In this document: positions 36,773 through 40,252 of the stretch, one piece after another
Layout: the number at the start of each line of letters is the position of its first letter
Numbering within the stretch: the first letter of the stretch is position 1
DNA from: Nannocystaceae bacterium
GTDB taxonomy: Bacteria > Myxococcota_A > Polyangia > Nannocystales > Nannocystaceae
Length of the DNA: 64,000 nucleotides
NCBI GenBank assembly: GCA_019694555.1
Contig: JAIBBS010000018.1
Span: forward strand, 1-64,000
Direction of reading: 5' to 3'
Notes under the pieces: model-generated
What the model saw: only the letters and a program-made list of their open reading frames with translations
The model's database searches: none
What the model was told of the DNA's origin: nothing
Made by a program: the position numbers and the translations under genes

Positions 36773-37420
36773 ATGACACGTACGAAATTCTCAGTGTGCC
36801 TTTCGGTCCTGGTGGTCGCGCTCGCGGCCTGCGGTGGTGACGACGGTGGCGACGACGGCGCCGGCGACAGCTCCTCGGGCGGCTCGGCGAGCACGACCAT
36901 GACGACGTCGGCGAGCACGACCGCGACGACCTCGGCGAGCACGACCGACAACACGTCCGCCACCACCGACGCGAGCAGCACGACCGACGACCCCACGACC
37001 GACACCGGCGCGGACTCCAGCAGCGGTGCGCCCGCGTGCGCGACCGATGTCTGCGCGACCTACGGCGCCGCGGTGCCGGTGGTCGCCGGCCTGATCGTCG
37101 ATCAGGCGGCGGCGGATCCCGAGTTCGCGGACTTCTTCGCGCCGCTGGTCGGTGAGGGCACCGAGGCAGTCGACGCGTTCAAGGCCAGCCTCGCCAACTT
37201 CATCAGCGACGCGTACGGCTGCACCAGCGGCGCGTACACCGGCCCGAGCATGCCCGAGGCCCACGCCGGCATGGGCATCACGCAGCAGCAGTACGACGAC
37301 TTCATCGCGCTGATCGTGGGCGTGTTGCAGGGCGCGGGCGTGCCCGACGACGACATCAACTACTGCTTCGCGCCGCCGCTGGTCGACCCCGCCTTCGAGG
37401 CCATGATCATCGGGCAGTGA
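36773..37420 (+). CDS. Lipoprotein carrying a truncated-hemoglobin-like domain
   Basis: The protein is 215 residues with signal peptide and lipobox (VALAAC, Cys20), then a Thr/Ser/Asp linker to ~residue 85. Residues ~92-205 follow the group-1 truncated globin pattern: VPVVAGLIVDQAAADPEFADFF (B/C helices with the FF of the CD corner), FKASLANFISDAYG (E helix), YTGPSMPEAHAGMGIT with His164 in the place of the proximal F8 heme ligand, then the G/H helices YDDFIALIVGVLQGAGVP. Added Cys (89, 94, 150, 198) would form disulfides outside the cell. A lipid-anchored globin would bind heme, O2 or NO at the surface. The next gene starts in a GTGA overlap. Confidence 0.78.
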   Translation: MTRTKFSVCLSVLVVALAACGGDDGGDDGAGDSSSGGSASTTMTTSASTTATTSASTTDNTSATTDASSTTDDPTTDTGADSSSGAPACATDVCATYGAAVPVVAGLIVDQAAADPEFADFFAPLVGEGTEAVDAFKASLANFISDAYGCTSGAYTGPSMPEAHAGMGITQQQYDDFIALIVGVLQGAGVPDDDINYCFAPPLVDPAFEAMIIGQ

Positions 37421-38124
37421 ACACCATGGATACGCGATCGAACCGTCGTCACAAACCATGGTTGCGCGTGCTCGGCGTGCTCGCGCTCGGCAGCGCCGCA
37501 TTCGTGGCCGTGGTGGGCTTTGCCCACACGCCCGCGGGGCGACCGCTGCTGCGATACCTGCCGGGGATGGGCAGCAGCTGCCCGCACGCGGCCGCGGCGA
37601 CGATGACGGCGGACGATCGCGACCGCGTGCGCGTGCAGACGCTCGCGCAGTATCGCGGTGAGGCACCGGCGGCGTCGCGGGACGCCGCCGGTTTCCAGCT
37701 CGGCAGCGCCTCCCGCGACGAGGTGGAGCGCTGGGCCCTCGCGCACGCGCTCGCGTGCACGGCGGCCGGCAGCAGCCTGCGCTGCGACGCGGTGCCGGCC
37801 GGCGCATTGCCGCCCGGTCACGTCGCCGACACGATCCACTTCGGCTTCGATGCCCGCGACCGCGTGGTCTCGGTCGACCTGTCGAGCCGCCTGCCCGACG
37901 CCGCGATCGCGGCGCAGTGGGTCGAGCGCAGCGACGCACGGCTGCGCGCGCAGCTGGGCGAACCCACCGCGCAGCGCGGCGAGGCCACCGCGGCGTTCAT
38001 GGCCCGCGCTCCGCTGGCTCAGGTCGCCAGCGAGTTCCGGCGCACCGAGCTGCGCGCGAAGGTCTCGGTCACCAACCTCGGCCACGGCCGCTTCGCCGCG
38101 CGCGAGACCTACCAGCAGCTGTGA
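37417..38124 (+). CDS. Secreted or membrane-anchored protein of unknown family, coupled to the globin lipoprotein
   Basis: The protein is 235 residues from GTG 37417 (GTGA overlap); ATG 37426 is an alternative. An N-terminal basic stretch (RSNRRHKPW) and one hydrophobic helix (VLGVLALGSAAFVAVVGFA) suggest a signal anchor with the rest outside the cytoplasm. The exported part contains SSCPHAAAATM, paired Cys (ACTAAGSSLRC), and strands with VADTIHFGFDARDRVVSVDLSS. No family is recognised. Tight coupling to the globin-like gene suggests joint function, for example assembling or protecting the heme protein. Confidence 0.7.
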   Translation: MNTMDTRSNRRHKPWLRVLGVLALGSAAFVAVVGFAHTPAGRPLLRYLPGMGSSCPHAAAATMTADDRDRVRVQTLAQYRGEAPAASRDAAGFQLGSASRDEVERWALAHALACTAAGSSLRCDAVPAGALPPGHVADTIHFGFDARDRVVSVDLSSRLPDAAIAAQWVERSDARLRAQLGEPTAQRGEATAAFMARAPLAQVASEFRRTELRAKVSVTNLGHGRFAARETYQQL

Positions 38125-38315: not shown

Positions 38316-38789
38316 ATGAAACGGCTGGCCCTGCCGATCCTCGCCGCCTGCACCGCCGCGGTGCTCACCGTCGCCTGCGACGATCACGACGACGACGAGC
38401 AGTGCCCCGACGAGCACGGGGGCGAGTCCGCCGACGAGCATGGCGAGACGTGCGGCGAGGAGGAGGGCGAGTTCGGGCCCCCGACCGAGTCGGTGTGTCC
38501 CGAGGGCTCGACGCTGACATGGGAGAGCTTCGGGCAGTCGTTCATGCAGACGTACTGCACGCGCTGCCACGCGTCGACGCTGATGGGCGCCGACCGACAG
38601 GGCGCGCCGCTGTACCACGACTTCGACACGCTCGAGGGCGTGCTCGTGGTCGCCGACCACGTCGACATGAAGGCCGCGTCCGGGCCTGGCGGTACCAACG
38701 AGCTGATGCCGATCTCGGCGCCGACGCCATCGTTGATGGAGCGGCAACAGCTGGGCGAGTGGCTCGCGTGCGAGCTCGCGAAGATGTGA
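38316..38789 (+). CDS. c-type cytochrome lipoprotein (single heme)
   Basis: The protein is 157 residues from ATG 38316. It has a signal peptide with lipobox LTVAC (Cys21) and an acidic Asp/Glu/His-rich linker. A covalent heme site YCTRCHAS (Cys81-His85) is followed by a region rich in Met (VDMKAA, ELMPISAPTPSLM), which could supply the sixth ligand, and a C-terminal helix RQQLGEWLACEL. It should be a membrane-anchored electron carrier. A 191-bp gap separates it from the preceding gene. Confidence 0.85.
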   Translation: MKRLALPILAACTAAVLTVACDDHDDDEQCPDEHGGESADEHGETCGEEEGEFGPPTESVCPEGSTLTWESFGQSFMQTYCTRCHASTLMGADRQGAPLYHDFDTLEGVLVVADHVDMKAASGPGGTNELMPISAPTPSLMERQQLGEWLACELAKM

Positions 38790-39019
38790 GCGTCGCGCGG
38801 CCGGTCATCCGAGCGCGCCGCCGACGGGCGCGAACCATCGCGTGAGCCCCACGGTCGCGAGCCTGCGAGGCGCATCGCGCCGCACGTTGCGGCGGCGTTT
38901 CGCACCATGCCGTCGCAGGTGCCCGACGGCGGTGCTCGGCGGGCCGTGAACCGGGGCACGGGTGTCGGCATCAGCTGGGACGGGTGACGCGCTGGCGCGG
39001 CGCCCAAGGAGCAAACCCA

Positions 39020-39613
39020 GTGAGACCGTTCATCGCTCATCTGGCGCGGCCGTTGGCTGCGCTCGCCATCACCCTGGTCGCCTGCGACAGCGCACCCGCA
39101 CAGACCCTCGACCTCGACCTCGCGCGCTTCGGCGTGGTGACGGTGGAGAAGCACGGCGACGCCTTCGCGCTGCTCGGCGAGGACGGCGACGCCGTGGGTC
39201 GCGTCGAGCATCGTCGCGAGCGCGGACACGACGTGCTCGACGTCGAGCTCGATGGTGCCGTGTCGCGTTTCGAGTGGAACGACGCCGGCGAGCAGCTGGG
39301 CCTGGTCTGCGAGGACGGCACGGAGATGACCGATACCTGCGCCGACGGGCTCGACGTCGGTGCACGCGTGCTCGCGAGCGAGGGCTTCGAGGTGCCGGGA
39401 CTCGAGGTCGCGCCGGACGAGCTCGAGTTCCGCTCCGCGTGCGAGGTCGTGTCGACCACGGCGATCAACTGCGAGGTCTGTCTGTCGCGGGCAACGACCT
39501 ACGCGACGTATTCGGTGTGGGACGGCGGCTCGTGCACGCAGGGCTGGTTGTGGGCCTCGTGCACGCACACCTTCTGCTCGCGCAGCAGCGAGATGGAAAT
39601 GATGCTCGAGTAG
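39020..39613 (+). CDS. Cys-rich lipoprotein, first of a tandem paralogous pair
   Basis: The protein is 197 residues from GTG 39020, preceded by AAGGAG at the right distance. A signal segment ends in ITLVAC (lipobox). The N-terminal domain (LDLDLARFGVVTVEKHGDAFALLGEDGD) and a Cys-rich C-terminal domain (CEVC, SCTQGW, SCTHTFC) end in SEMEMMLE. The gene at 39644 repeats this layout almost block for block. I do not recognise a function. The conserved, acidic/Met-rich last eight residues are notable. Confidence 0.75.
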   Translation: MRPFIAHLARPLAALAITLVACDSAPAQTLDLDLARFGVVTVEKHGDAFALLGEDGDAVGRVEHRRERGHDVLDVELDGAVSRFEWNDAGEQLGLVCEDGTEMTDTCADGLDVGARVLASEGFEVPGLEVAPDELEFRSACEVVSTTAINCEVCLSRATTYATYSVWDGGSCTQGWLWASCTHTFCSRSSEMEMMLE

Positions 39614-39643
39614 ACGATGCGGGTTCGAAGCGGAGCAGTCATC

Positions 39644-40252
39644 ATGAAGACCAACACCATCAAGACCAACGCAATCTCCCTCTTCTTCGCCTCGTTGCTC
39701 GGCGTTGTCGCCGCGTGCGACGAGGCCGCACCCCGAAGCCTCGAGGTGAACCTCGAGCGCTACGGCATCGCCGAGGTGCTCGCCGATGGCGACGACGCCT
39801 ATCGCCTGATCGGCGAGGACGGCGTCGAGCTCGGCGTGGTGAACCGCACCGAGGCGGCGTCGGGTGCCGGCATGGAATTCGAGTTCGCCGATCACGAAGG
39901 CTCGCTGGCGTGGACCGCAGACGACGGCGAGGCGATCTGCGACGGCGTCGAGTCCGAGGTCACCGCCTGCGCCGAGGGCCTGACCGTCGCCGCGGCAGTG
40001 CTGGAATCCGACGGCGTGGACGTGCCGGGCTTCGAGGTCGCGGGGCAGACGGATCACGCGTTCCGCAACGCGTGCACCACGGTGTCGACGTGGATCTGGG
40101 CGCCGGGCTCGTGCGGTCAGTGTCTCGCGGAGGCGCAGAAGGCCGCGCCGGGCATGACGCACGACAGCGGCACGTGTTCGCTGGGCCTGTTGTGGATCAG
40201 CTGCACGCACACGTTCTGCGGCGGCTCCGAGATGGAGATGCTGCTCGAGTAG
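39644..40252 (+). CDS. Cys-rich lipoprotein, second of the tandem pair
   Basis: The protein is 202 residues from ATG 39644, 30 bp after the first copy. The signal peptide ends VVAAC (lipobox). LEVNLERYGIAEVLADGDDAYRLIGEDG parallels the N-terminal domain of the 39020 protein, and the tail CGQC...GTCS...LLWISCTHTFC...SEMEMLLE parallels its C-terminus. The N-terminal domains are more diverged than the last 25 residues, which suggests that the Cys-rich C-terminal unit is under stronger constraint. The function is unknown. Confidence 0.75.
   Translation: MKTNTIKTNAISLFFASLLGVVAACDEAAPRSLEVNLERYGIAEVLADGDDAYRLIGEDGVELGVVNRTEAASGAGMEFEFADHEGSLAWTADDGEAICDGVESEVTACAEGLTVAAAVLESDGVDVPGFEVAGQTDHAFRNACTTVSTWIWAPGSCGQCLAEAQKAAPGMTHDSGTCSLGLLWISCTHTFCGGSEMEMLLE

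Follow-up and report, generated by a model that had tools for sequence, protein, structure and literature searches.

The gene at positions 36773 to 37420 of our window (the whole stretch of 64,000 nucleotides that was analysed, from a draft genome of 8.76 Mb) lies on the plus strand, and the 215-residue translation of its open reading frame is a lipid-anchored protein whose C-terminal domain was identified computationally, by fold and profile, as a truncated (2/2) globin. The sequence AGAGG is found upstream of its ATG, and a scan for promoters and terminators returned nothing beyond chance level. The lipoprotein signal sequence of the protein reads MTRTKFSVCLSVLVVALAAC. It corresponds to a type II (lipoprotein) signal peptide of residues 1-20 (36773 to 36832, plus strand), recognised from the sequence and from homologues, in which the charged N-terminus MTRTK is followed by a hydrophobic core and then by the lipobox LAAC, closed by Cys20, the residue that is predicted to be lipidated. 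This architecture of signal peptide and lipobox is common to almost all homologues of the globin; the strict lipobox pattern was found in 43 of 60 domain records, and most of the others could be recognised by eye, cases at contig edges apart. Residues 21-88 (36833 to 37036, plus strand) form a low-complexity linker of Thr, Ser, Asp and Gly, 68 residues in length, and at the same position the N-termini of homologues carry other low-complexity runs such as GDGDGDP, TDTDTD and poly-T. The lipobox and the Thr/Ser linker ahead of the domain, both of which had been pointed out in a preliminary description of this DNA, are thus real features of the protein.

Identity of the globin domain

The assignment of residues 89-215 (127 residues; 37037 to 37417, plus strand) as a truncated 2/2 globin draws on profile searches, a fold model and alignment. 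The AlphaFold model of the domain has a pLDDT of 94.5 and a pTM of 0.85, and when it was compared with the PDB by Foldseek the leading matches were all group 1 truncated haemoglobins (probability 1.0, TM 0.72-0.77), so that the predicted structure has the 2/2 globin fold. A fold prediction had been set beforehand as a check on the globin core that the preliminary description proposed, and its outcome did not refute that proposal. A search of the PDB with the single sequence retrieved M. tuberculosis HbN at E=7.5e-4, with H164 falling on the F8 His of HbN, and a profile of 15 relatives retrieved HbN at E=5.9e-20, followed by other group 1 truncated haemoglobins, cyanoglobins and algal TrHbs; a profile-profile comparison with cytosolic TrHb1s from the same class gave a probability of 99.3%. 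Five orthologues in the same bacterial family are 70-78% identical to the globin over the domain, and their existence, together with the single-sequence match to HbN, indicates that the open reading frame is not a chance one. In a scan of named genomes the sole relative was an uncultured MAG contig. Scans of the protein against Pfam and NCBIfam made no globin call and matched only the low-complexity linker or the signal peptide, while the Pfam family Bac_globin (PF01152) was matched by 11 of the 15 aligned relatives, at E values of up to 1. Because both databases miss the clade to which this globin belongs, its members are probably annotated as hypothetical proteins.

The sole His of the protein, H164 (codon at 37262-37264, plus strand), sits in the motif MPEAHAGMGIT and aligns as F8 with the His that is proximal in group 1 truncated haemoglobins of known structure, in agreement with the proximal type that had been ascribed to it; judged from the alignment and fold match together, it would face the predicted haem pocket. 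The FF at the CD corner, which had also been noticed in the sequence, finds its counterpart in the alignment, where the second residue of the FF (residues 121-122), F122, occupies CD1. Judged by the leading globin matches of the family profile in the PDB, the domain is nearer to group I than to group II or III. The PheB9-TyrB10 pair, which is the one commonly found in group N and its most conserved distal feature (PMC4720485), stands as I108-V109 in this globin, and Tyr B10 is absent from all of the 77 exported domains that we aligned; the AB and EF Gly-Gly motifs are represented by YGAA and YGCT. With Tyr B10 missing and the Gly-Gly motifs reduced, we regard the domain as divergent, with group I as its nearest kin, and not as a canonical member of that group.

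Haem pocket and cysteine pairs in exported and cytosolic globins

Our comparison of haem pockets covered 60 exported domains from the 52 loci at which the globin is paired with the partner gene described below, 17 further exported domains from distant loci and, as controls, 30 matches obtained with the cytosolic group 1 globin that this genome itself encodes, of which 28 could be aligned. These controls come from the same class and are mostly cytosolic, with the lipobox proteins L191 and L193 among them. The F8 His was present in 60/60 and the CD1 Phe in 59/60 of the exported domains from the pair loci, and each was present in 17/17 of those from the distant loci, which amounts to 77/77 and 76/77, respectively, for all exported domains together. 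The distal residues, assigned from the alignments, are V109 (B10), F136 (E7) and L140 (E11) in the globin examined here. The 60 domains have V, I, F, L or M at B10 (T in three), F, L, I or V at E7 (T in one) and L or F at E11, and the 17 further domains are apolar at all three positions. In the controls, by contrast, Tyr was found at B10 in 26/28, Gln at E7 in 26/28 and Gln at E11 in 25/28, and this difference between apolar exported and Tyr/Gln/Gln cytosolic globins is present even inside one genome.

The polar distal network of an HbN-type NO dioxygenase, that is Tyr B10 with Gln at E7 or E11, has accordingly no equivalent among V109, F136 and L140, and the apolar pocket of nearly all 77 exported domains therefore argues against an O2-stabilising, NO-dioxygenase chemistry. 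The retention of F8 His and CD1 Phe, combined with the loss of the polar distal residues, indicates at the level of sequence that what is needed for binding haem has been kept and what is needed for stabilising O2 has been lost. The contrast between exported and cytosolic members makes a link between the location of a globin and its haem chemistry directly testable.

The preliminary description had also drawn attention to four extra cysteines, and the protein does contain Cys at residues 89, 94, 150 and 198 in addition to Cys9 and Cys20. Among the 60 domains, Cys residues at the positions of C94 and C150 co-occur (24/24), as do those of an alternative pair located in the E-helix and before F (37/37), and the N-terminal Cys at the C89 position is found together with C198 in nearly all of its carriers; the majority of the control globins have no Cys. 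Gain and loss of cysteines in pairs is the pattern expected of disulfides, and from it we infer two such bonds in the globin, which probably join C94 to C150 and C89 to C198.

The partner gene and its linkage to exported globins

The gene at 37417 to 38124 (plus strand), characterised by its model, its homologues and its linkage to the globin, is a conserved partner gene for a membrane anchor followed by an alpha/beta domain of no known family. The coupling of the globin to an exported protein without a known family, reported from the first reading of the sequence, is therefore borne out. A GTG start at 37417 would overlap the globin stop by 4 nt (GTGA), and there is an alternative ATG at 37426. 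A single membrane-spanning segment is predicted by hydropathy at about residues 18-36 (37468 to 37524, plus strand) and is a helix in the model; since the N-terminus is positively charged, the C-terminal domain should be located outside the cytoplasm. The alpha/beta model has a pLDDT of 92.9, and a comparison of the protein with Pfam found no family. Foldseek detected a weak likeness to the DcrB / SciW / PsbP-like fold (probability up to 0.87, TM <0.3 over the query), which, with no sequence relation found, is not a firm assignment. In 28 close homologues His37, Cys55-Pro56, Cys114 and Cys123 (full-protein numbering) are invariant or nearly so. Neither the globin nor its partner contains a CxxCH motif.

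The partner was matched in 53 of 318 genomes of the class. We read 52 close loci in full, representing 49 genomes and including three loci from other classes, and at all 52 a globin domain adjoins the partner gene, in 51 cases directly upstream and on the same strand. One partner match (L196) had no globin nearby, and two others (L197 and L198) are weak matches and apparently false ones. More distant homologues of the partner occur throughout the phylum, and most of them are lipoproteins that lack a membrane helix; at nine of 13 believable distant loci there are between one and three exported globin domains in the vicinity, in one case on the other strand, and no globin was found near the distant homologues L201, L202, L204 and L205. 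The distant partners at L199, L200, L203, L208, L209 and L210, several of which are lipoproteins, belong to other classes of the phylum and lie beside exported globin domains that are arranged in tandem, two or three at a time. Within one bacterial family the pair distances of globin and partner are correlated (Mantel r=0.62, a value reached by 0/5000 permutations), and inside the window's own family, in comparisons of L018, L019, L021 and L055 with the pair at 36773-38124, the globin domain has an identity of 69-76% as against 32-48% for the adjoining partner.

A search for lipobox-globin fusions in related genomes, which the preliminary description had recommended, uncovered many lipoprotein globins across the phylum. 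The earlier view of the protein as an exported globin stands, with the qualification that it is not the only one of its kind, in the light of these relatives and of periplasmic globin-cytochrome fusions in cable bacteria. Some of the lipoprotein globins differ in their surroundings or their construction. L010, L011 (L025, L026) are group 1 globins of the lipoprotein type in which a Cys pair surrounds the GG motif, and no partner homologue was found near them. At L012-L017 (for example L012:373-2304, minus strand), in large genomes of the same bacterial family, a proprotein-convertase P-domain (PF01483) comes after a pair of globin-like domains in a lipoprotein.

By eye, and among the matches listed, there is no further gene that regularly accompanies the pair. 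The lipoprotein gene at 38316-38789 (plus strand), which begins ~190 nt past the partner gene and whose product has a single CxxCH (YCTRCH) and a weak match to cytochrome c, was weighed as a possible third component and discarded, as it was not found at the other pair loci searched. The two genes at 38984-39613 and 39617-40252 (plus strand) are paralogues in tandem. Their products are exported proteins that have a Cys-rich C-terminus in common (HTFC..SEMEM.LLE) and for which no Pfam family was found above the cut-off.

Possible roles and comparison with known globins

The explanation that we favour, and to which we would give about an even chance, is that of an envelope globin that binds a gas (NO or CO, or O2 weakly) and has the partner docked on it. 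The globin would leave the cytoplasm through Sec, receive its lipid at Cys20 and stay in the cell envelope on a flexible tether of 68 residues, with its domain stabilised by the putative disulfides C94-C150 and C89-C198. It would carry haem b on His164, and its apolar distal side should favour NO or CO as ligands, with weak binding of O2, over the activity of an NO dioxygenase of the HbN type. The partner, anchored by its own helix, would probably dock on the globin as a membrane receptor or readout subunit. It is conceivable, at well under an even chance, that such pairs represent a two-component envelope haem system, widespread in the phylum, in which the apolar-pocket globin captures NO or CO and its ligand-bound form is read or used by the partner. 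Neither a cofactor nor an output domain can be recognised in the partner, whose cytoplasmic tail is very short, so that a signalling role would be one without a visible output. Several points count against the favoured explanation: ferrous haem in an apolar pocket outside the cytoplasm should autoxidise, no reductase was found conserved beside the globin-partner pair, and some members of either family stand alone (L201, L202, L204 and L205 without a globin, L010 and L011 without a partner).

Other explanations share parts of this evidence. A redox role, in which the haem alternates between the ferric and the ferrous state at the envelope (as a peroxidase, in nitrite or O2 reduction, or as an electron relay) and is fed by envelope cytochromes, would be in keeping with the truncated globin-multihaem cytochrome fusions of cable bacteria, which are proposed to reduce O2 (PMC11976967), and with the proximity of the one-CxxCH lipoprotein to the partner gene. 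That cytochrome-like gene is, however, confined to this locus among the pair loci searched, no conserved redox gene flanks the pair among the matches listed, and catalysis would have no polar distal residue available to it; we consider a redox role rather unlikely. Sec-exported b-type globins need to acquire their haem outside the cytoplasm, and the partner might instead serve in maturation, as a haem chaperone, anchored in the membrane and CcmE-like in function, which loads the apo-globin by way of its juxtamembrane His and Cys-Pro. The conservation of His37 and Cys55-Pro56 in the 28 close homologues and the very tight gene linkage would fit a haem chaperone, but most of the distant partners beside exported globins are lipoproteins or otherwise without the membrane helix and the His/Cys-Pro region, which weakens the haem-loading interpretation, and lipoprotein globins such as L010 and L011 manage without any partner, so that we hold it to be unlikely.

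Some stress-signalling pseudo-globins are non-haem modules with a globin fold, and the present fold might similarly have been retained for binding proteins, with no haem in it. The complete divergence of the distal residues and the reduction of the canonical GG motifs to YGAA and YGCT could be understood in that way, but an F8 His that is invariant and a CD1 Phe missing from one domain of 77 would be unexpected if haem were dispensable; the invariance of the His weakens the non-haem interpretation, which seems to us highly improbable. It is also improbable, in our judgement, that the globin is a low-affinity store or facilitator of O2, many tethered copies of which would bind and release O2 near the respiratory chain with the partner as their anchor. 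Apolar distal residues raise ligand on-rates, Leu at E7/E11/G8 correlates with low O2 affinity in group N (PMC4720485), and tandem versions with two and three globin domains do occur. The haem would, however, have to stay ferrous in a location beyond the cytoplasm, and the neighbourhood of the pair has no conserved reductase.

Work on truncated globins has dealt chiefly with cytosolic proteins whose task is the detoxification of NO or the tight binding of O2. A large family that is exported, probably disulfide-bonded and lipid-anchored, that lacks the polar distal network and that is associated with one partner would represent a different use of the fold, outside the cytoplasm. In the open-licence PMC literature we came across no account of truncated globins with a lipid anchor or of the globin-partner pair, and searches of titles and abstracts there for a globin with a lipobox or a truncated haemoglobin with a lipoprotein yielded nothing evidently on topic.

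With the group I (N) truncated haemoglobins, for example M. tuberculosis HbN (1idr) and Shewanella benthica TrHb1 (8tls), the globin shares the 2/2 fold, the F8 His, the CD1 Phe and the motif YTG..M...H.G.GIT, the homology being established by profile. It differs from them in being exported and lipid-anchored, in its four Cys residues, which would form two disulfides, in its dedicated partner gene, in the absence of Tyr B10 and of Gln at E7/E11, and in its reduced AB and EF Gly-Gly motifs. The group N clades of low O2 affinity have apolar E7 and E11 residues in common with this globin, but in the analysis that describes them (PMC4720485) the most conserved distal feature is the PheB9-TyrB10 pair, whereas the exported domains never have Tyr at B10; the main text of that study makes no mention of 'signal peptide'. 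The closest parallel with regard to location comes from cable bacteria, in which periplasmic fusions of truncated globins with multihaem cytochromes (lPHCtX), sometimes with two globin domains per protein, also place a truncated globin domain outside the cytoplasm (PMC11976967). Exported truncated globins are thus already known, and our comparisons point to the lipid-anchored form with a partner gene as one that is undescribed in the literature searched. A fused multihaem c-type domain of the cable-bacteria type is absent from both the globin and its partner: in lPHCtX the globin is fused to a pentahaem cytochrome, whereas here it is held by a lipid tether and accompanied by a separate, non-cytochrome partner.
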